Virus record (IMG/VR): IMGVR_UViG_3300025117_000228
Coordinates: 1 to 22,741 of that record
DNA length: 22,741 nucleotides
Direction: 5' to 3' (one strand)
DNA from: a virus
Below, one piece after another: positions 2,743-22,629 of the stretch. The notes under the pieces are model-generated. The model worked only from the letters and a program-made list of their open reading frames with translations, did not search any database and was not told the DNA's origin. Numbering within the stretch: position 1 is the first letter of the stretch; each line of letters begins with the position of its first letter. Position numbers and translations under genes: made by a program.

Positions 2743-3432
2743 TCACTTTTTTTGAGATTTTTCGCAGAGGCAAGACCCATCCATGCAAGTAAATCTACCA
2801 CATTTTTTACACTTAGAAGCTTTGGCCTGTTCTCGGAGCAGATCAAGTTCTTTCCCGCGAACACGGAAAAACTCTTTCTCAGGATCAATTCCAGCAAGAG
2901 CAGGTTCCAAGTTACCAGGTAAAGCAAGAAATTCCTTACCACGTTTATGAAATCTAATCCTGTAACAAGGATAGATAGTCTTAGGTTTATAAGAAGCCCC
3001 ATGAGGCTCCCCGTATGGGCCAGTATCATGCCGGATATTGCCAGTAGAAATAAATGTAGTGCCTACAATCCAAGCATAAGGACTTCGCATGAATCTATCA
3101 GTTAGGTAGATTGGACGATCGTTATCTCGTCCTAGTGTATGGATCGCCTTCAAAGATGGGGATTTTGTGGCGTAATAAACCACCTCAACAACATCCCCAA
3201 TATTATACGTCTTTACACCATGGTTGTTCCATTGTTCAACCAGTTCATTCATTTTGACCTTCTTTCTATCTCGTTTAATGGTACTTTCAAAGACGTCTCC
3301 GGGCATATCATGACCACATTGTAGACAACTAATTACGTATGCATAGATTTCAAGGTTGTCTGGCATATCCACCAAAGCTATATCGATCTCTGCTTTTCCG
3401 CCGCAGTAAGGACATTGTTTTATATCTTTCAT
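2743..3432 (-). CDS. Lar-like zinc-ribbon protein with extra C-terminal Cys cluster
   Basis: The first 70 residues have the layout of restriction-alleviation (Lar) zinc ribbons: CPYCGG (C7, C10), a second pair ISCLQCG (C36, C39) and the closing EQWNN (W68-N69). Lar proteins are short and modulate type I restriction; this protein is far longer (229 aa). Residues 75-200 form an unrecognised beta-rich domain, and residues 208-223 form a second Cys cluster (CKKCGRFTCMDGSCLC). Start ATG 3432 has AGTAGGT just upstream. The zinc-ribbon call is fairly sure; an anti-restriction role is inference only. Confidence 0.65.
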   Translation of the reverse strand: MKDIKQCPYCGGKAEIDIALVDMPDNLEIYAYVISCLQCGHDMPGDVFESTIKRDRKKVKMNELVEQWNNHGVKTYNIGDVVEVVYYATKSPSLKAIHTLGRDNDRPIYLTDRFMRSPYAWIVGTTFISTGNIRHDTGPYGEPHGASYKPKTIYPCYRIRFHKRGKEFLALPGNLEPALAGIDPEKEFFRVRGKELDLLREQAKASKCKKCGRFTCMDGSCLCEKSQKK

Positions 3433-3438
3433 TTTTAC

Positions 3439-3765
3439 CTACTTACTTATTGAAGAAAACAAAAACCAAGAAGGTTCGCATGGGATTTTTAGTTTATTAC
3501 AGAATCTTTTAAGTTCACCACTGGGAGGCTTTTTAGTTGTGTCTACCGGAACAGCATCATAGCCATCAATGCAATAGCGAAATTTAGGTACTGCGGCCAT
3601 ATATCTATAATATCCGTCATGGCCGTACTTTATCATATCTAGGTCTATTGTTTTTATAGTCAGACCGGTTAACCATCGCTTTGGGAAACTCGCATCAATA
3701 TCCTTCACATGTTCTTGTGGGATTAGAATACCGTAGGCAAGATGTGTATATACGTTTATTTGCAT
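3439..3765 (-). CDS. Hypothetical protein, 108 aa
   Basis: No family is recognised. The protein is mixed alpha/beta in appearance, rich in Tyr and Lys, without signal peptide or membrane segment, and has only two Cys (in RYCIDG and IPCEPS). The start at 3765 is strong: AGGAG lies 6 nt upstream, inside the end of the preceding gene, which it overlaps by 10 nt. It is followed 6 nt later by the Lar-like gene at 3432, so the genes are probably co-translated from one message. Confidence 0.6.
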   Translation of the reverse strand: MQINVYTHLAYGILIPQEHVKDIDASFPKRWLTGLTIKTIDLDMIKYGHDGYYRYMAAVPKFRYCIDGYDAVPVDTTKKPPSGELKRFCNKLKIPCEPSWFLFSSISK

Positions 3766-4013
3766 TTTATTCTCCTATTCCATTTATTACATAACTTTTT
3801 GATTTCTTCTTTGATCTCCTCTCTCCCTAGACTATCAAAGCAACTTACAAAACCAGGCATTTCTATTCCACAAGCACACGTGATCACAACAGAATAATCA
3901 TCACATCTACAACCTGCATATTCAACTCTTAAACCTAGTTGTACTGCCGCACCACAGAAAGGACAGTATTTAATTTCACCATCATAGAGTTCGGCATCAA
4001 TAGGTTCAATCAT
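3756..4013 (-). CDS. Small Lar-like zinc-ribbon protein
   Basis: An 85-residue protein with the Lar-type pattern: CPFCG (C17, C20), ITCACG (C46, C48) and the terminal NKWNR (W78-N79). Two more Cys (C35, C37) lie between. Its length is close to that of classical Lar/anti-restriction zinc ribbons, making it the most typical of the three in this window. The open frame reaches 4076, but ATG 4013 is chosen: it sits 1 nt after the TAA of the preceding gene and starts MIEPIDAE; the earlier codons overlap that gene. Modulation of host restriction is a family-based inference. Confidence 0.65.
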   Translation of the reverse strand: MIEPIDAELYDGEIKYCPFCGAAVQLGLRVEYAGCRCDDYSVVITCACGIEMPGFVSCFDSLGREEIKEEIKKLCNKWNRRIKCK

Positions 4014-4014
4014 T

Positions 4015-4218
4015 TTATTCTTCTTTCTTATTAAGAGGACAATCTGGCCCCGGACGACAACCATCTGCCGATCCATAGAGATTATACCGCAACAAACAAC
4101 GCCACCTTTCTTCTACCGCCGCAATGTTTTGTCCATATTCGTTGTAGATGAATCTACAGCCTTTGCTGCAATGTCCCCACACGTCTGCATCTGGAATTTC
4201 AATAATTATTGTTTTCAT
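4015..4218 (-). CDS. Cys-rich hypothetical protein, tandem paralogue A
   Basis: A 67-residue protein, MKTIIIEIPDADVWGHC..., with Cys in GHCSKGC, WRCLL and a final CRPGPDCPL. The same landmarks (GHC, W-x-CLL, PGPDCP) occur in order in the gene just upstream, so the two look like a diverged tandem duplication. ATG 4218 overlaps the preceding TAA as TAATG, and GGGAGAGA stands 5 nt before it; the 14 codons upstream are unlikely to be used. The Cys spacing suggests a small metal-bound or disulphide fold. Function unknown. Confidence 0.65.
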   Translation of the reverse strand: MKTIIIEIPDADVWGHCSKGCRFIYNEYGQNIAAVEERWRCLLRYNLYGSADGCRPGPDCPLNKKEE

Positions 4219-9389: not shown

Positions 9390-9632
9390 TTAGAGAATAA
9401 TTGGCGAAAGTAACCAGGTTACTAGAGCAGCTAATAAAAAGTAATCTGCTAAATTTTTATAACACACAGCACCAATTAGAATGCATATAAAATACCCTAA
9501 ATCAACACAAGAATTTGTCAAATAAGAAATCCAAAATTCTAAAGTATATTCGAGACAGTACCCACCAAAAAGCCCACAGAGTAGTAATATAAGTATTAAT
9601 TCTTCACCAGATTTTTCTTTTTCTTCTGACAC
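9390..9632 (-). CDS. Small integral membrane protein
   Basis: An 80-residue protein starting with a GTG codon preceded by AGGAG about 7 nt upstream. After an acidic N-terminus (SEEKEKSGEE) it has three hydrophobic stretches (residues about 11-28, 45-58 and 62-80) that look like membrane spans, ending in LLSPIIL. No signal peptide cleavage site or enzyme motif is seen. It lies between the deaminase and DUF932-like genes. Function unknown; a holin role is possible by topology but nothing else supports it. Confidence 0.55.
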   Translation of the reverse strand: MSEEKEKSGEELILILLLCGLFGGYCLEYTLEFWISYLTNSCVDLGYFICILIGAVCYKNLADYFLLAALVTWLLSPIIL

Positions 9633-9641
9633 GACCTTCTC

Positions 9642-10055
9642 CTAAATCTTTAGTTTTTCTATTTTACCGCCCCAATTAGAAAACACTACGTATTTGATTC
9701 CAACTTCTCTAATCGCCGCCATACAAGAACTACATGGAAAAGCCATAGAAATTACATTATCAACTTTTCTTCTTCTTGTTACGTATAATGTTGCTTTTGA
9801 TAAATCCTTGCAATTGTGTAAAGCTTCTATTAAAGCATCTATTTCTGCATGAAGATACTGCTTCTTCGGGCCACCATACTTCTTTTGTGTCGGATGGGTT
9901 TTTTCCCGATTAGACCCGGTTCCCAGTACCCGCCCGCGACGCGCTATAATGCAGCCAATAAATTGATTGCAGTGACCCCCGAACTTTGTTAAGGTTGCGG
10001 CCAGGGCCATCAGGTCAACGTCTTTTTGGGAAATGGTCATTGGCTGGGCTTTCAT
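9642..10055 (-). CDS. dCMP/cytidine deaminase-like zinc enzyme
   Basis: A 137-residue protein with both zinc-binding motifs of the cytidine/deoxycytidylate deaminase superfamily: HAE (H69-A70-E71, within LHAEIDALIEAL) and PCSSC (P107, C108, C111). H69 and the two Cys bind zinc and E71 shuttles the proton during hydrolytic deamination. The GSNREKTHP stretch before the HAE helix also fits. Phage dCMP deaminases feed dUMP to thymidylate synthesis; cytidine itself is an alternative substrate. It is the first gene after the leftward promoter at 10073-10101. ATG 10055 has no clear ribosome-binding site; ATG 10040 or 10010 are alternatives. Confidence 0.8.
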   Translation of the reverse strand: MKAQPMTISQKDVDLMALAATLTKFGGHCNQFIGCIIARRGRVLGTGSNREKTHPTQKKYGGPKKQYLHAEIDALIEALHNCKDLSKATLYVTRRRKVDNVISMAFPCSSCMAAIREVGIKYVVFSNWGGKIEKLKI

Positions 10056-11135: not shown

Positions 11136-11542
11136 ACTACAATATCGACAAGTTTACTTTCACTGATTATATCGACTATAAACGACAATTCGAGTCGATA
11201 ACCTTTAATCAGGCGAGACCTTCTTTCCTGGCATGGCTTGCTCGATATACTGTAAAAGACAACAAGGGGAGGTACATAACAAATAATTCAGAAGAGACGA
11301 TCCCACTCTTAATCTCCCATCTAAATAATCTGGCGCAAAATAGTTGTCTTGTTTGTGGTCATCAATGTAAAAATATAGTCTGTGAATCGTGTAAAAGGGA
11401 AGGGTGGAAAACACAACATGATATGGACAGTATATTTTCATTTATGAAAATATCAGAACTTGTCGGAACTGGCGTATGGGCGCGAAACAAAGAAAGGATT
11501 ATTTATTACAAGAATGGAATGCTAAACAAAACAAATATTTGA
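11132..11542 (+). CDS. Hypothetical zinc-ribbon protein, 136 aa
   Basis: A protein with an all-helical N-terminal half and a compact Cys cluster at residues 72-87 (CLVCGHQCKNIVCESCKREGW; C72, C75, C84, C87 as the likely ligands). The only start consistent with the open frame near the preceding gene is TTG 11132, which overlaps that gene's stop as TTGA; a weak AAAGA lies upstream. It is the last gene before the terminator at 11572 and lies just upstream of the large terminase. A small-terminase role was considered because of position, but no DNA-binding domain supports it. Confidence 0.5.
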   Translation: MNYNIDKFTFTDYIDYKRQFESITFNQARPSFLAWLARYTVKDNKGRYITNNSEETIPLLISHLNNLAQNSCLVCGHQCKNIVCESCKREGWKTQHDMDSIFSFMKISELVGTGVWARNKERIIYYKNGMLNKTNI

Positions 11543-11568
11543 CATAATAATATTAAGTCTTGTATAAT
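11539..11568 (+). promoter_or_regulatory. Consensus sigma70 promoter for the late unit
   Basis: TTGACA (11539-11544), an 18-nt spacer and TATAAT (11563-11568): both boxes match the consensus exactly. Initiation is expected near 11575, inside the left arm of the terminator that follows. Confidence 0.8.
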
Positions 11569-11571
11569 TAA

Positions 11572-11598
11572 CCCAAGGATCATTCCTTGGGTTTTTTT
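11572..11598 (+). terminator. Intrinsic terminator
   Basis: CCCAAGGA (11572-11579), loop TCAT, TCCTTGGG (11584-11591), then seven T (11592-11598). The perfect 8-bp stem and U-tract should stop transcripts coming from the four-gene unit at 10205-11542. Confidence 0.85.
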
Positions 11599-11626: not shown

Positions 11627-13840
11627 ATGTCAGAAATTGATCATACAAGTCTATCTGACCAAGAATTAAATTCCATAAATGATGCAATAAAAGAATCAGA
11701 AGATTTTGTAAAGAAGGGTGTAGATACAAATATACAAATCCTGTCAGATGAATTTATGTGGGATTTAGCAAAGAAATGTACTCAATATTGTATCTTGCAG
11801 AATGGAAAAGAGTTTAGAAAATACCAGACTTGGTTTTGTAATAGGATTATCTATTCGCTTCTTATAGAAGATGTAGAGACTATCACTGGACTCTGGGCGA
11901 GGCAGTGTCTTCCTGGAAATACTATTATCTTTGACCGCGATGGCACTGCTTTACAAATTAAAGATCATAAAGATGCTTGGTATACCGGGCATAGAGAAGT
12001 GTTTAAAGTAACTGTTGCAAATGGAATGCTTGTTCGTGCAACCGGAAATCATCCATTTCTTACAAAACGTGGTTGGATTCCAGTACTTGATTTAGTTCCA
12101 GATGATTATCTTTGTATATTATCTTCTTGGGATCGTCTAAAGAGTAAGTTTGATAAACTAACAAATACTGATAATTGTTACGAAGCAGCGGAAGACGGAA
12201 TTGATGGCGAGAAGAGAGTTTGGGTAAAACTAAAATCAGTAGTTCCAGATGGAACAGAAGATGTTTATGATATTACTTTCCCTGGAAAGGGTTGGTTTGT
12301 AGCGAATGGTTTTTGTGTTCACAACTCAGGGAAGACAGAGGTACTAGCTACAATATGTGCTGGAACTGCTATTATTCTTCCCACGCTATCTAAATACCTA
12401 AGTGATCCTCGTATACAAAAGTATAAAGATGGAATGTGGATGGCTATCTTTGGCCCCACTTATAGTCGCGCTGGTATTATGTATAACCGGGCTAAGCAAT
12501 TCCTTTTAAGCAAACATTCACGAGATGTTATTCGTTCTTTAGGAACTGGGATTAACTTAGATAACTTCCGTGGTTCAGTATTAAAACTTCCAAATGGTAG
12601 TTTTATTGATATTCGTACTGCTAGTCCTGGTTCTAAGCTAGAGGGAGATACCTATCACTTTGTTGTAATGGAAGAGGCGCAGGATATTTCTAATACTCTT
12701 GTGCGAAAGTCTATTACACCAATGATTAGTGATACGGCAGGAACCAGGGTAAAGATCGGAACTCCTACTAAAACAAAAAACCACTTTTACGATTCGATTA
12801 AACGAAACGTGGCAGCAGATGGAATAGCTAAGATTGGGGACTGGGAAGACAAGACTGAGAGTTATAAGAACAAACTACACTTTGAATTTGATTGGAAAAC
12901 AGTAGTTAAATACGCTGGGACAAATCGGTATGAAAAAGTTGTCAAAAAAGTAATAGAAGAGTTTGAAAGTATTGGTGGTGAGAATTCAGAAGACTTTAAG
13001 ATGGCATACTGTTGTAAGTGGTCTGATAGTCTAAGTTCTTTCTTATCTAGCGCCGCGTTAAAGAAGTGCTCAGTTATCCATGGAGCATCAGAATTTGTGT
13101 ACGGTGAAAAGGGAGAAGTAATCTCTGAATTTAAGAAGCGGGCTTTAACGGAAAGATCAGAAGGTGATCATCCTGTTATTATAGCGGGTGACTTCGGTAA
13201 AATGAAATCATCAACTGTACTTACCGCTGGGAAAGTATGGTTAGACAACCCCATTAAGTTTGCTGGAGAGACACGGTATCGAATACACATTTTGGACTGG
13301 CTTGAGATTATTGGCGACGATCATGAATTGCAACATAAACAAATACTAGAATTTGTTTCGCGGTATCCAACTTGCTTTAAGTTCGTTGGCGACGGAACAG
13401 GTAAAGGTGATCCAATTATTTCCCGTCTTCGGGGTGATTTGGAGCCGAACAGAATTGCGGTTGTACCATTTATATTTTCTAAGCAATCAAAACATGAAGG
13501 GTATGGCGTATTAGAGCAAGAGATAAACAGCGGAAGGATAACTTGGCCTTATGGAAAAACAACGAAAACCAAGAGAGTAGACCGCTTCTATCAGCAGTTG
13601 GAAGGTTTGGAAGTTGAATGGGTAGGCAACATCAGGAAGGTTGGTAAACCAGAAGATGAATCTTCGGCGCAAGATGACTACCCTGATAGTTTAATGATGC
13701 TTTGTTGGGGTGCAAATAAAGATAGAAGACATATTTCTACTCAACTTGATTACAATCCACTAATTAAAGTAGATACAAGATATTTTGAGAATTTCCTTTA
13801 CGAAAGACCAGACAACTTCAGTAGGCGCCCTTTTAGATAG
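11627..13840 (+). CDS. terL: Phage terminase large subunit, interrupted by an in-frame intein
   Basis: The packaging motor ATPase/nuclease, 737 residues as translated and 597 after removal of a 140-residue intein (residues 94-233). Splicing joins ...LWARQ to SGKTEV, rebuilding the Walker A motif. Walker B is VVMEEAQ (E349-E350 the key acids). The C-terminal RNase H-like nuclease carries IIAGDFGK (D522), KFVGDGTGKGD (D589) and DDYPDSL (D687), the usual three metal-binding Asp. The frame is open from a TTG at 11597, inside the terminator, so ATG 11627 with AGTAGG just upstream is chosen. Portal follows 8 nt after the stop. No small-terminase gene was identified nearby. Confidence 0.92.
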   Translation: MSEIDHTSLSDQELNSINDAIKESEDFVKKGVDTNIQILSDEFMWDLAKKCTQYCILQNGKEFRKYQTWFCNRIIYSLLIEDVETITGLWARQCLPGNTIIFDRDGTALQIKDHKDAWYTGHREVFKVTVANGMLVRATGNHPFLTKRGWIPVLDLVPDDYLCILSSWDRLKSKFDKLTNTDNCYEAAEDGIDGEKRVWVKLKSVVPDGTEDVYDITFPGKGWFVANGFCVHNSGKTEVLATICAGTAIILPTLSKYLSDPRIQKYKDGMWMAIFGPTYSRAGIMYNRAKQFLLSKHSRDVIRSLGTGINLDNFRGSVLKLPNGSFIDIRTASPGSKLEGDTYHFVVMEEAQDISNTLVRKSITPMISDTAGTRVKIGTPTKTKNHFYDSIKRNVAADGIAKIGDWEDKTESYKNKLHFEFDWKTVVKYAGTNRYEKVVKKVIEEFESIGGENSEDFKMAYCCKWSDSLSSFLSSAALKKCSVIHGASEFVYGEKGEVISEFKKRALTERSEGDHPVIIAGDFGKMKSSTVLTAGKVWLDNPIKFAGETRYRIHILDWLEIIGDDHELQHKQILEFVSRYPTCFKFVGDGTGKGDPIISRLRGDLEPNRIAVVPFIFSKQSKHEGYGVLEQEINSGRITWPYGKTTKTKRVDRFYQQLEGLEVEWVGNIRKVGKPEDESSAQDDYPDSLMMLCWGANKDRRHISTQLDYNPLIKVDTRYFENFLYERPDNFSRRPFR
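11906..12325 (+). other. Mini-intein within terL Walker A
   Basis: A 140-residue protein-splicing element without an endonuclease domain. It begins with Cys (CLPGNTIIF, block A), has block B VRATGNHPFLT with its conserved Thr and His, block F DVYDITFPGKGWFVANGF and block G CVHN, and is followed by Ser as the +1 extein residue. These are the residues for N-S shift, transesterification and Asn cyclisation. The insertion point lies between Q and S of the P-loop, the most conserved spot in the host protein. Confidence 0.93.
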
Positions 13841-13848
13841 GAGTCACT

Positions 13849-15450
13849 ATGGACTATAGAAAACTAGCACTTGCCTCTGCTTCAATGTCAAATTTTCATC
13901 GGCATTTAATGCAGAATGCTGAAAATATGCAAAGAATCATGCAGTATGAAACATATTGGGATTTTTATAATGGGATTCAGTGGATAAACAGGTCTCCAAA
14001 TGACAAAAATAAGCTAAAAACAATTAACTATTGCAAGGCAATTATAGATCGACATGTAGAATTTCTAGTAAGAAACGGATTTGATATAGTTATCCCGGAT
14101 ATTCCTGATACCCCGGAAAACGAACAGGAATCAAGGCAATTCCAGAAGAATTATTTGGATGATGCTTGGCGCAGAAACGACAAGAATCTTTTCCTGTTCC
14201 TATTGGCGCAAACAGGGTTTGTAACAGGTGATACTTGGATACGAGTATCTTGGGTTGGTGATGATATATATGACAATTCAAGTTTTGATGCTTCAGAAAA
14301 CAACTATGTAAAACTAGATGTTATCCCTCCTAGTTTTGTTTATCCTGTTGTTGGTGGTCCTTATGGGGTAGATAAGGATAATATACAAGAGATTACTATT
14401 CTGTATCCTGTATACAAGCGTATTGAATCTAAAAAATTCTTTTCTTATGATACACATTTTGAAGATAATATAGTAGTAAAGTCAGAAACCTGGACAAAAA
14501 ATACTGTTACTTACAGAGAGGGTAAAGATTCAGAAGTAACTAAAGAACACTTCTATGGGGAAATACCACTTATACATATCCCAAACTGGTTGCAAGGATC
14601 GAATTATTACGGTTATTCTGATCTAGCAGAGATCATAGATATTCAGAGAACCTACAACGAAAAGACTTCCGATCTTTGTAGAATGCTAGACTATTATGGG
14701 CATCCTACAACAGTAATTATAGGAGCAACACCATCTAATCTTTCTCGCGCGGAAGACAGGGTGTGGTTCATGCCAGAAGGAACGGAAGTAGAGAATCTGG
14801 AAATGCAAAATTCTCTTGCCGCCGGACTAGAGTTTAGAGATGCACTTAGGTCTGATTTATTTGAACTATCGTCTACCCCGGATGATGCCCTTGGTAGAAA
14901 GAATGATAAATCACAGGCGGATAATACTTCGGCTATATCATATCATTACATGCCAATGACTGACAAACGAGACGTAAAACAGAATCTGTATTCTAAAGGA
15001 CTGGAGAAAGTAAATGAACTGATTATGAAAACATTGGAAATGAAAGATCAGAACTTTAGAAAGCAGATGGATGCTTTAAAGAAGTATGGAACACATATCT
15101 ATCGTAACCAAGTTATATTCAAAGAGACTCTCCCTCGTAACGAGCAGATGGAACGATCTAACGCTGAAACCGATCTTAGATTAGGATTGACTACAAGAGA
15201 GCGGGAATTAAGACGACGTGGTTGTGGTGATTCAGATGCTAAATTTATTGTTGAAGAAGCAAAGAAAGAAATGAAAGAAGAATTAGAAACCAAGTTACAA
15301 TTAGAAAATCAATATGCAATAAAAGTAAATGCAGGCAGCAACAACAGTGATAGTACAAAACAAAACGCGGGTAACAAAAGCCCAACTAGACCAGAACAAG
15401 AAATACAAGGGAATAAAGTTTCCTTGACAAGTGAAAAGAAAGTGCAATAA
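13849..15450 (+). CDS. Phage portal protein
   Basis: A 533-residue protein of the SPP1 gp6-like portal type, forming the ring through which DNA enters the head. Supporting features are its place right after terL, its length, the N-terminal YWDFYNGIQWINR segment, the INYCKAIIDRHVEFLV helix, the GYSDLAEIIDIQRTYNEKTSD helix region (about residues 258-278), and a long charged C-terminal tail with a Gln/Asn-rich end. AGGAG precedes ATG 13849 by 5 nt. The assignment comes from context and resemblance. Confidence 0.8.
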   Translation: MDYRKLALASASMSNFHRHLMQNAENMQRIMQYETYWDFYNGIQWINRSPNDKNKLKTINYCKAIIDRHVEFLVRNGFDIVIPDIPDTPENEQESRQFQKNYLDDAWRRNDKNLFLFLLAQTGFVTGDTWIRVSWVGDDIYDNSSFDASENNYVKLDVIPPSFVYPVVGGPYGVDKDNIQEITILYPVYKRIESKKFFSYDTHFEDNIVVKSETWTKNTVTYREGKDSEVTKEHFYGEIPLIHIPNWLQGSNYYGYSDLAEIIDIQRTYNEKTSDLCRMLDYYGHPTTVIIGATPSNLSRAEDRVWFMPEGTEVENLEMQNSLAAGLEFRDALRSDLFELSSTPDDALGRKNDKSQADNTSAISYHYMPMTDKRDVKQNLYSKGLEKVNELIMKTLEMKDQNFRKQMDALKKYGTHIYRNQVIFKETLPRNEQMERSNAETDLRLGLTTRERELRRRGCGDSDAKFIVEEAKKEMKEELETKLQLENQYAIKVNAGSNNSDSTKQNAGNKSPTRPEQEIQGNKVSLTSEKKVQ

Positions 15451-16518: not shown

Positions 16519-17496
16519 ATGGCTAATGTGGGTTTTGGTGTTAATACTGGTGGGCAGTATATTGCTCTACCAGAGACGAAGCTTCCTGTTTATTCCGCTG
16601 TAATTGAACGTCTTGCTCTTCCTAATATGCCTTTTGATTACTTTGCTGTTCAGAATGAAGACCTGAGCAAAATGCCAGGTGAGCAGATTATCTTTACTCG
16701 TTTTGGCGACATTGATCTTGGTGGGCCGCTGCTTGAAACTAAAACCATTGAGACTAAAGCTTTTACCGCCTCCCAGTATTCAGTTACCGTGACTGAATGG
16801 GGCAATGGTATGGAAGTATCTGAAAAGCGACTGCATCTAGCGCAAGAAGATACTCTTATGGAAGCTTCGATCTCTCTAGGCCGCGATTATGGTATGACTA
16901 CCAATAAGTGGCTGCGAGATACCGTGATGGGCACTCCGAATGTTATCTATTCCAATGGCCGGGCTTCTCGTGCTGCTTTGCAAGGTGGCGTTGACTACTT
17001 CAATATTGATCTAGTACATCAAGCTGCTGAAACACTAGATACTGCCGGCGCTCCTAAATTCCAGGGTTTGAATGCTTGGGTTTGTGTGTGCCACCCTCAC
17101 CACATTGCTTATTTGCGTCAAGACCCACACTGGGAAGCTGTTCAACTTTATAATCGTACCGGCCGCCCGATGGATTATACTGTTGGTCGCATTGATGACA
17201 TGGTGTTTATTTCCTCGACTGGAATGCCAAACGGCGCACAGGCTAATACTGGCAAGAATAAGATTGCTTACGATGCCACTTTGATCAATGCCTCTGTTGG
17301 TGGAACTGCCCCAGCAAACGTGTACAAGTCTGTTTTCTTTGGTGACTATTGCTATGTTCGTGCTACTGCACTACCAGTCCAACTTCGTTATGACATTCCT
17401 GCTGACTTTGGCCGTCAACACAAACTAGCTTGGTATGGCATCTTCGGTCTTGGGCTTATGGAAGCCGATTTCGCAGTCGTAGCCGAAACTGTTTAA
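16519..17496 (+). CDS. Major capsid protein, N4-gp56 type
   Basis: A 325-residue HK97-fold capsid subunit of the N4-gp56 type. Supporting features are the N-terminal ALPETKLPVYSAVIERLALP segment, the MPGEQIIFTRFGDI strand (residues 52-65), the EWGNGMEVSEKRLHL spine region (about 93-107) with a following long helix, and the C-terminal DIPADFGRQHKLAWYGIFG block. The codon pattern is richer in CTT/GTT/CGT/GCT than neighbouring genes, as for highly expressed phage proteins. CGGAGG stands 7 nt before ATG 16519. Confidence 0.85.
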   Translation: MANVGFGVNTGGQYIALPETKLPVYSAVIERLALPNMPFDYFAVQNEDLSKMPGEQIIFTRFGDIDLGGPLLETKTIETKAFTASQYSVTVTEWGNGMEVSEKRLHLAQEDTLMEASISLGRDYGMTTNKWLRDTVMGTPNVIYSNGRASRAALQGGVDYFNIDLVHQAAETLDTAGAPKFQGLNAWVCVCHPHHIAYLRQDPHWEAVQLYNRTGRPMDYTVGRIDDMVFISSTGMPNGAQANTGKNKIAYDATLINASVGGTAPANVYKSVFFGDYCYVRATALPVQLRYDIPADFGRQHKLAWYGIFGLGLMEADFAVVAETV

Positions 17497-20206: not shown

Positions 20207-22084
20207 ATGCCTAATTATAATGATTTTCCTCCAGGGTCGTTTGCAAATATTGATACGAGTAGAGTTGTTACTCCTTTTACCGCGATTAATAGTATTACTC
20301 CTTGCTTTTATGTAACTTGTGAATGGGGTCCTACTCTTACTCCGACTCTTGTTACTCCAGACTTCTCTTCGTTTGAGAAGCAGTTCGGTACTTACAAGAG
20401 TGGATTAAATGGTGCTTATCAGGTAAACAACTTCTTTGAAGAAGGCGGACGTGCTTGCTATGTTTACCGATTAGCCCAGATGGATGTGAATCTACAATAT
20501 GTAGATGCTACTAAGGCTTCTGTAACTATCCCAGGTCTTGATCTTGATGGTGCTTATGGCTACGGACCACAAGTAGGTTTGGTTGTTTGGGCTAAATATT
20601 ATGGATTGCTTGGTAATGATCTTAAAGTAACTTTTACCAAAAACTCTGAACGACCGAGTTTTGGTACTGGACTAGACCTTGCTGCTAATGCAGTAGCCGG
20701 CAATGCTTACATTGATGTGTTAGGTCTATATGGCTTTAAAGCTGATATGGTGCTTCGTATACACGAAGGAACCAAGGACGAATGGGTTTCAGTACAGGCT
20801 GTAGAAACTATTGTAAGTGGTGGAACCACAACTTATCGGGTGCATCTAAATGATGATTTGATTCAAAGTTTTGCTGCTGCAACAACTACAGTCGAATCCA
20901 TGGAATTTGATGTTCTTGTTTACGTAAAGAACAAGTTGGTTGAATCCTTCTCTAAGTTGTCTGTAAATGCTGACGCTAATAACTACTTCGCCACCGTAAT
21001 CGACAATGAATATGAAGGGTCAAATTATATTACTATAGTTCCGGGTTCTGGAGCTACTACATTCTCTGCTATGTTCCCGGATGATATTGTCAAAGCGTTG
21101 CTTGCTGGGGCTACTACAGAATTAAATGCTAATAATTATGTTGCTGATACTGAAGTAATCGGCGTCAAGGGATTCAAAACTGGTTTATATGCAATGGACG
21201 ATTTCCGTTGGCTTATTAGCAAACTTTGTATTCCAGATGGTAACACCAATATCTATCGTAAGGCTCAGGTATATTGTGACAATCGACAAGACATGGGGTT
21301 ATCTTTAGCAGTTCCGAATGCAGATGTGCCGGCAGGATTTACTACAATTGCTGCTTACACCACTGCTGCTAGTTGGCGACAAAAGTTTGGTGCATCTTCG
21401 TTGTTTGTTGACGGCCCATTGTGGGCGGATATTGAAATCTATGATCCAATTGGCAAGGGTAAAAATCCTCGTAAGTGGATCGATCCAACTGGCGCTGTTT
21501 TGGGAATGAACGCTCGTATTGCAACCCTGCCATTTAATATTGACGGTGGTATCCATGCTTGCCCGGCAGGGTTTGACGACAACTTTGGTTATCTCCGTAC
21601 TGCTTACGATGTGAAGTACAAGACTTCCCCTGATGAACACACTTACCTTAACAATGCTGGGGTAAATGCAATTATCAAGAGCGGCGCTAAAGTGTATGTC
21701 CGTGGTTGCCGTACTACTTCCGCAGACGAAAGGTTCCGCTTCATTGGTAATACCAACTTGCTGATTAGTATCAAGAATACTTTTGAGCAATCTTCTGAAT
21801 ATGCTGTGTTCCGTGGTAATAATAAACGACGTTGGAACGCTCTTGTCAAAGCTGGCGAAGATTATCTTAAGGGACTTTTTGATGATGGCCAACTTGGTGG
21901 GGCTAACTATGACGAAGCTTTCACCATTAAAATGGGAGTAGACCAAAACACTATGACTCTTGCAGATGTTCAGAAGGGGCTAGAACTAGGGCAAGTAGCA
22001 GTACTTCTCCCTGGCGTAGCCGAAAAGATATTCTGGAATATCAACGTAATTGATCCAAACCAGATTGGTTTGTCAATCGTTTAA
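20207..22084 (+). CDS. Contractile tail sheath protein
   Basis: A 625-residue sheath subunit; its helical polymer contracts to drive the tube through the host envelope. The N-terminal block (SRVVTPFTAINSITPCFYV, then FSSFEKQFG and AYQVNNFFEEGGRACYVYR, residues about 18-86) and the C-terminal block (CPAGFDDNFGYLRTAYD; GNTNLLISIKNTFEQSSEYAVF; the EKIFWNINV strand) have the order expected for phage sheaths, with an inserted variable beta-rich region between (about 150-300). TAGGGAATT precedes ATG 20207. It is followed 14 nt later by the tube gene, the usual pairing. Confidence 0.88.
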   Translation: MPNYNDFPPGSFANIDTSRVVTPFTAINSITPCFYVTCEWGPTLTPTLVTPDFSSFEKQFGTYKSGLNGAYQVNNFFEEGGRACYVYRLAQMDVNLQYVDATKASVTIPGLDLDGAYGYGPQVGLVVWAKYYGLLGNDLKVTFTKNSERPSFGTGLDLAANAVAGNAYIDVLGLYGFKADMVLRIHEGTKDEWVSVQAVETIVSGGTTTYRVHLNDDLIQSFAAATTTVESMEFDVLVYVKNKLVESFSKLSVNADANNYFATVIDNEYEGSNYITIVPGSGATTFSAMFPDDIVKALLAGATTELNANNYVADTEVIGVKGFKTGLYAMDDFRWLISKLCIPDGNTNIYRKAQVYCDNRQDMGLSLAVPNADVPAGFTTIAAYTTAASWRQKFGASSLFVDGPLWADIEIYDPIGKGKNPRKWIDPTGAVLGMNARIATLPFNIDGGIHACPAGFDDNFGYLRTAYDVKYKTSPDEHTYLNNAGVNAIIKSGAKVYVRGCRTTSADERFRFIGNTNLLISIKNTFEQSSEYAVFRGNNKRRWNALVKAGEDYLKGLFDDGQLGGANYDEAFTIKMGVDQNTMTLADVQKGLELGQVAVLLPGVAEKIFWNINVIDPNQIGLSIV

Positions 22085-22098
22085 TAAGGAGTAAATAG

Positions 22099-22629
22099 AT
22101 GCCTCTTAATGCAGATTTTGTCGCTAAAGAAAAATTAATCAATTCTGGATTTATTGTGACATTCAACATCCCAGCATACCCTGACACTATTCAGGTCGGT
22201 ATGTCCAAGATTACCGGACTCAACAGTAAATCACAAATCATTGAATATCGTGAAGGTGATGAGATTGAGATCAATCACAAGTTTCGTGGTAATGCAGTAT
22301 TTGACAACGTGTCTATGGAACGAGCTGTTCCACGAAAAGGGGTATTAAATGCTGGCTTTTTCAAAAAGTGGAAAGAAGACAGTAACCGTTTTACAAACAT
22401 AAAACATGGCGGAAACCCGAACAGCGCCATTGTACCGGCTCAGTATCGCGGGACGGCAATAGTAGAAGTGCTTGATGTAGATCGTGCAAATTTAGCATAT
22501 GAATTTGAATTGCCTAATGTTTGGCCAGCAGAAGTATCTTGGAGTGATCTTGAAGGTGCTGGCGGTGCATTATTTACAGAAACAATTTTATTTGCTACCG
22601 AAGCAGTATTTGCTACTTTGTCAAAATAA
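22099..22629 (+). CDS. Tail tube protein (gp19-like)
   Basis: A 176-residue subunit of the inner tail tube. The FIVTFNIPAYPDT strand, SKITGLNSKSQIIEYREGDE (residues about 36-55) and the NVSMERAVPRKGVLNAGFFKKW block (about 74-95) match the T4 gp19-type tube fold (strand, 'sGL...v..y.eG', 'v.L.rg'). Length agrees with the family. AAGGAG lies 8 nt before ATG 22099. Rings of this protein stack inside the sheath encoded just upstream. Confidence 0.85.
   Translation: MPLNADFVAKEKLINSGFIVTFNIPAYPDTIQVGMSKITGLNSKSQIIEYREGDEIEINHKFRGNAVFDNVSMERAVPRKGVLNAGFFKKWKEDSNRFTNIKHGGNPNSAIVPAQYRGTAIVEVLDVDRANLAYEFELPNVWPAEVSWSDLEGAGGALFTETILFATEAVFATLSK

Follow-up and report, generated by a model that had tools for sequence, protein, structure and literature searches.

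The window, meaning the whole 22,741-base stretch of viral DNA analysed here, contains the late operon of a tailed phage, from the terminase large subunit gene terL to the tail tube (Table 1). Read from the ATG at 11627, terL encodes a precursor of 737 aa (an upstream in-frame TTG at 11597 also lies in the open frame), which is interrupted within its Walker A motif, at WARQ^SGKTE, by a segment of 140 residues. Removal of this segment would leave a predicted product of 597 aa, in agreement with the spliced length proposed in the initial annotation of this DNA. The C-terminal part of the protein matches phrog_2 (terminase large subunit, 1.1e-20) and, weakly and slightly below the cut-off, Terminase_6N, and TerL has conserved acids at D289, D356, D450 and D451. 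An assembly artefact of a single contig is excluded because an identical intein-carrying terL is present in two further contigs (3300002097_000133 and 3300025087_000273); the intein shows zero variation among these sister contigs.

Table 1. Features of the interrupted terL gene and of the late operon around it (window coordinates).
Feature	Position	Strand	Basis
N-extein of TerL, ending GLWARQ	11627..11905	+	93 codons from ATG 11627; aligns with the N-terminal part of the relatives' TerL up to [SA]RQ
Class-1 mini-intein, 140 aa (HINT domain without endonuclease)	11906..12325	+	PF14890, TIGR01445/TIGR01443, solved inteins, AF2 model; exact boundaries: Cys1 codon at 11906, Asn140 ends at 12325, Ser+1 from 12326
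Block A, CLPGNTIIFDRDG	11906..11944	+	Cys1 nucleophile and conserved Gly13, both invariant in 16 aligned inteins
Block B, VRATGNHP	12032..12055	+	Thr46 and His49, invariant in 16 aligned inteins
Linker, residues 77-97 (~21), place of the endonuclease region in relatives	12134..12196	+	Alignments; low model confidence
Blocks F and G, EDVYDITFPGKGWFVANGFCVHN, with Asp122, His139 and Asn140	12257..12325	+	TIGR01443 and 16-row alignment
SGKT: Ser+1 nucleophile and C-terminal half of Walker A	12326..12337	+	Uninterrupted [SA]RQ-[SAG]GK[ST] in 77/80 relatives
C-extein of TerL: rest of the ATPase and RNase H-like nuclease	12326..13840, stop included	+	Terminase_6N, phrog_2, conserved acids
Portal gene, directly 3' of terL	13849..15450	+	PF05133 SPP1_portal, 2e-19
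Major head protein	16519-17496		phrog_1357, 8e-37
Contractile tail sheath	20207-22084		phrog_23, 4e-26
Tail tube	22099-22629		Phage_T4_gp19, 6.6e-14

Several minor features were seen around these genes. At 11539-11598, a perfect sigma-70 consensus promoter (TTGACA-N18-TATAAT, 12/12) runs over the stop codon of the preceding ORF, and a strong hairpin carrying a T-run (stem 11570-11593; fold z-score -2.6) begins 2 bases past its -10 box, directly before terL; this hairpin is a candidate terminator, attenuator or 5' stabiliser. Further upstream, ~21 bases stand in place of 9398-9703 (~306 bases) in contigs L011 and L012, which are elsewhere nearly identical to the window, an insertion, deletion or replacement inside the phage population. 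For two small minus-strand ORFs, 2746-3432 and 3759-4076, the similarity to Lar, a restriction alleviation protein (PF14354), is weak and below the cut-off (1.7e-5 and 5.6e-5, respectively).

The splicing domain and its short N-terminal half

The 140-aa segment is matched by the Pfam model Intein_splicing (PF14890; 1.1e-15, 58.2 bits, cut-off 35.8) and by the models of the N-terminal and C-terminal splicing regions, TIGR01445 (1.2e-6, 29.4 against a cut-off of 24.5) and TIGR01443 (4.5e-5, 23.6 against 15.6), as well as by the sequences of the solved DnaB, DnaX, DnaE and RecA inteins. All three models score above their cut-offs and a modelled fold agrees (see below), which bears out the proposal of the initial annotation that a mini-intein splits Walker A here, after ARQ and ahead of SGKT. 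The splicing residues it had listed (Cys1, the block B Thr and His, the HN end and Ser+1) were likewise recovered, block B reading RATGNH. In a 16-row alignment of the window intein with 15 relatives, Cys1, Gly13, Thr46, His49, Val120, Asp122 and Asn140 are invariant and His139 is nearly so; block G of the window intein reads FCVHN, and the full class-1 catalytic set (Cys1, Thr46, His49, His139, Asn140 and Ser+1) is in place. By homology, Thr46 and His49 would catalyse the N-S acyl shift. The two halves of the domain are joined by ~21 residues, which leaves, as had been claimed, no homing endonuclease within the segment. No LAGLIDADG, HNH or GIY-YIG match was found with Pfam in the intein or in the scanned ORFs of the window, and no free-standing homing endonuclease that could serve movement in trans among its larger ORFs.

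AlphaFold, supplied with the alignment of these 16 natural inteins, produced a model with a pLDDT of 92.2 and a pTM of 0.85, in which the block of lowest pLDDT (residues 81-90) falls inside the linker; a run without an alignment gave no fold (pLDDT 33) and was discarded for the aligned run. The closest structure to the model is the Ssp DnaB intein 1mi8 (rmsd 1.4 Å, 113 residues), followed by many further inteins and HINT domains of hedgehog proteins, and the segment is thus predicted to adopt the horseshoe HINT fold. The Ssp and Npu DnaB mini-inteins (1mi8 and 4o1r, Z 18.1 and 17.6, respectively), which are the best structural matches, share with the window intein the HINT fold, the class-1 residues and the lack of an endonuclease, but they differ in host protein and site and have ~22-27 more residues between blocks A and B.

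This shortness of the N-terminal half is the one unusual trait of the intein, and it is family-wide rather than specific to the window. The block B His is at position 48-51 in all 16 aligned inteins, including one from a different terminase protein (L231), compared with ~66-99 in the other inteins of the scan where the motif was read correctly (the automatic reading was wrong for L025, L225, L096, L042 and L077, whose numbers do not refer to block B). TIGR01445 aligns to the window intein only from profile position 44, and the residues matching window residues 22-27 sit ~22-27 positions later in solved inteins, some chains of which start with a few extein residues. As judged from these alignments, what is missing would be the first hairpin following block A. 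A tentative and rather doubtful extension is that inteins at the TerL Q^SGK site are a lineage of their own, with a HINT domain lacking the first β-hairpin segment between blocks A and B, of which the 140-aa window intein would be a natural mini form, trimmable towards one of the smallest splicing domains; going one step further, the speed at which the lineage splices might be tuned to late-phase packaging. The compact N-terminal half may serve small splicing tools.

Empty and occupied alleles of the insertion site

Searching with a profile of the TerL C-extein gave a comparison set of 80 TerL loci. The motif [SA]RQ-[SAG]GK[ST] is uninterrupted in 77 of them, two have inteins and one was not scorable, from which it follows that the segment is no regular part of terL. 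The loci with an empty site include the nearest TerLs (L138-L142, 39-41% identical), and the site is also uninterrupted in the Streptomyces phages BRock and pSt2308 (SRQSGKTETVA). No cultured phage was found with an intein at Q^SGKT; in Bacillus phage KLEB27-3 the TerL intein sits at GK^T. In the related TerLs of Bacteroides phage BS162P1 (L015) and of MT835482.1 (L013), Walker A is intact and a TerL intein, not named as such in the records, lies further downstream, at a different place in each.

When the window intein, the C-extein or the portal gene was used as a lone query, mainly identical viral contigs were retrieved, and relatives were reached via a VHN^SGKT DNA pattern and profile searches. 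The DNA pattern combined with the intein profile yielded 14 non-identical relatives whose inteins share the [Q/S]^SGK boundary. Nine of these (L137, L095, L123, L033, L225, L226, L227, L230 and L233) are full-length alleles of 342-372 aa with a LAGLIDADG_3 match at E 1e-13 to 1e-19. Four others (L025, L064, L119 and L122; 316-318 aa) keep an endonuclease-sized region without a LAGLIDADG match, in which both motif acids are missing or replaced, and are regarded as endonuclease-dead alleles. L221 is a second mini-intein at this boundary (159 aa). An intein-profile genome scan found one bacterial metagenome bin with an interrupted frame (L234). The initial annotation had presented a stand-alone mini-intein in Walker A as a puzzle, a view that is not sustained given alleles with an endonuclease, with a dead one or with none at the site in related TerLs and mini-inteins in Walker A of other TerLs.

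The dead LAGLIDADG region of the L025 group is still ~190 aa long. In its least diverged pair, L025-L119, this region looks constrained (dN 0.20, dS 1.3, Nei-Gojobori), the only usable value in a group where synonymous sites are largely saturated. The inactivated endonuclease may contribute structurally to splicing. Other variants were noted among the occupied alleles. In L227 (2605-3696; also L228 and L229), VSN replaces VHN before SGKS, a change of the penultimate His to Ser. The phage G-like TerL of L225 (3501-6836 of IMGVR_UViG_3300028886_000035, a 281 kb contig) contains three inteins in one open frame, all supported by Pfam: a double insertion in Walker A, 3 residues apart (SRQ^[358 aa]SGK^[272 aa]TES), and a third of 369 aa further downstream. 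A second, more downstream intein is also present in the TerLs of L221 and L230, that of L221 at the Walker B region (CEE^...HN^CQDIS).

The window intein has its closest relative in L137 (IMGVR_UViG_3300002307_002251), whose TerL intein likewise sits at Q^SGKT and has the short N-terminal half, but is 361 aa long and includes a LAGLIDADG endonuclease. Because the two are 55% identical over 119 splicing columns and the flanks of the deletion (DDYLCILSSW and DGEKRVW) are still recognisable, the window intein can be described as an L137-type intein minus ~220 residues, the ends of the deletion being approximate because the nearest TerLs are only ~40% identical.

The intein tree joins the window copy to that of L137 with moderate support (87/94), and L221 groups with L095, L225, L230 and the L025 group; a tree in which the two mini-inteins were forced together was rejected (p-AU 4.2e-5). 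Since they are not sisters, the endonuclease was lost at least twice, independently, at the Q^SGK site. The TerL tree, by contrast, places the window in a fully supported group with 8 intein-free terminases, and a TerL clade of the window and L137 was rejected (p-AU 0.005). The TerLs of the two are just 31% identical, against 55% for the inteins, a contrast qualified by the faster divergence of inteins than of TerL in the L025 group. Several branches of both trees are long, and no close relatives of this phage population, intein-free or endonuclease-bearing, are known. Because its TerL groups with intein-free terminases and not with that of L137, the window intein was probably acquired by homing into the phage lineage before the endonuclease was deleted. 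This order of events fits the homing-cycle model for inteins (PMC1654191), in which mini-inteins are end products of endonuclease loss (PMC8966425).

Predicted splicing, persistence and alternative readings

Taken together, the segment is very probably an ordinary class-1 mini-intein at a recurrent TerL Walker A site, Q^SGK[TS], which arose by a ~220-residue deletion from an L137-like intein. At the level of sequence, the splicing domain, the empty site, the full-length, dead and mini alleles and the discordance between the TerL and intein trees are established. Following established intein chemistry, the HINT fold would excise itself post-translationally and join ARQ to SGKT: with help from Thr46 and His49, Cys1 would undergo an N-S acyl shift, transfer to Ser+1 would follow, and Asn140 cyclisation and an O-N shift would then generate the 597-aa TerL with an intact Walker A. 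TerL would be active solely after splicing, as it can soundly be inferred that the ATPase of the precursor is inactive, its P-loop being cut between Q and SGKT. Packaging should thus need splicing, but dependence is not regulation. In evolutionary terms, an ancestral intein with a working endonuclease would have homed into the phage lineage and lost later the ~220 residues of the LAGLIDADG endonuclease and its linkers. The remnant would persist because an imprecise deletion would wreck a loop that the ATPase needs, and splicing makes it cheap to carry. A regulatory role is not needed to explain this persistence, for which the homing cycle accounts.

An improbable alternative is that the mini-intein is kept as a regulator and that slow or conditional splicing, in response to redox, temperature, DNA or ATP, times packaging. 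Conditional splicing has been documented for other inteins (PMC5790916, PMC6195587), any delay in splicing would delay ATPase activity because the insertion cuts the P-loop, and the intein contains Cys70, Cys91 and Cys137 besides Cys1. However, nothing specific was found in its favour: positions -1 to -6 of the N-extein (GLWARQ) are without Cys, which makes a redox trap pairing Cys1 with a nearby N-extein Cys unavailable, and the site is empty in most TerL relatives. Moreover, the five representative terminase inteins studied in mycobacteriophages spliced readily, the precursor being readily visible for just one (PMC5050341). Ideas on packaging control are left unchanged by the mini-intein. 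Marginally less probable still is a remnant that no longer splices, or a HINT domain limited to cleavage without ligation. This could be suspected from the short N-terminal half, but the half is common to 15 other inteins in terminase-type genes, Cys1, Thr46, His49, Asp122, His139, Asn140 and Ser+1 are all kept, and the fold model is confident. In addition, if TerL stayed unspliced, its Walker A would be broken although the late operon is otherwise intact, yet the gene is found unchanged in other samples. That the segment is a normal terminase insertion domain rather than an intein is refuted by the empty sites of its relatives, and intein HMMs and structures match it from end to end.

The window mini-intein is thus of a known and well-documented kind and not a new system. 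Its site brings together all stages of the homing cycle (empty, with an active-looking endonuclease, dead and mini) in one uncultured phage gene family.

Other inteins in the Walker A motif of terminases

Mycobacteriophage TerL1-a and TerL1-b are likewise inteins in the Walker A P-loop of TerL, and splicing has been demonstrated by experiment for TerL1-b and other TerL inteins (PMC5050341). These two sit at GK^T or one residue off, whereas the window intein lies at Q^SGKT, 3 residues before Thr, and by insertion site it does not belong with them; Q^SGKT thus adds another insertion site to those published for the mycobacteriophage P-loop. They also differ in host protein, which is of the Terminase_1 family whereas the window TerL is closer to Terminase_6, and the endonuclease of TerL1-b has been shown to be active (PMC5050341), whereas the window intein has none. 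Mini-inteins of 131-148 aa in the Terminase_3-type TerLs L035, L085, L096 and L130 also lie in Walker A directly before SGKT, but in another terminase family and with an N-terminal half of ordinary length. Apparent split inteins occur at Walker A as well: in L024, L030, L032, L060, L063, L071, L100, L101, L116 and similar loci, TerL-like ORFs start with 43-64 residues resembling the C-terminal half of a split intein, ending in VHN immediately before SGKT(Y/W).
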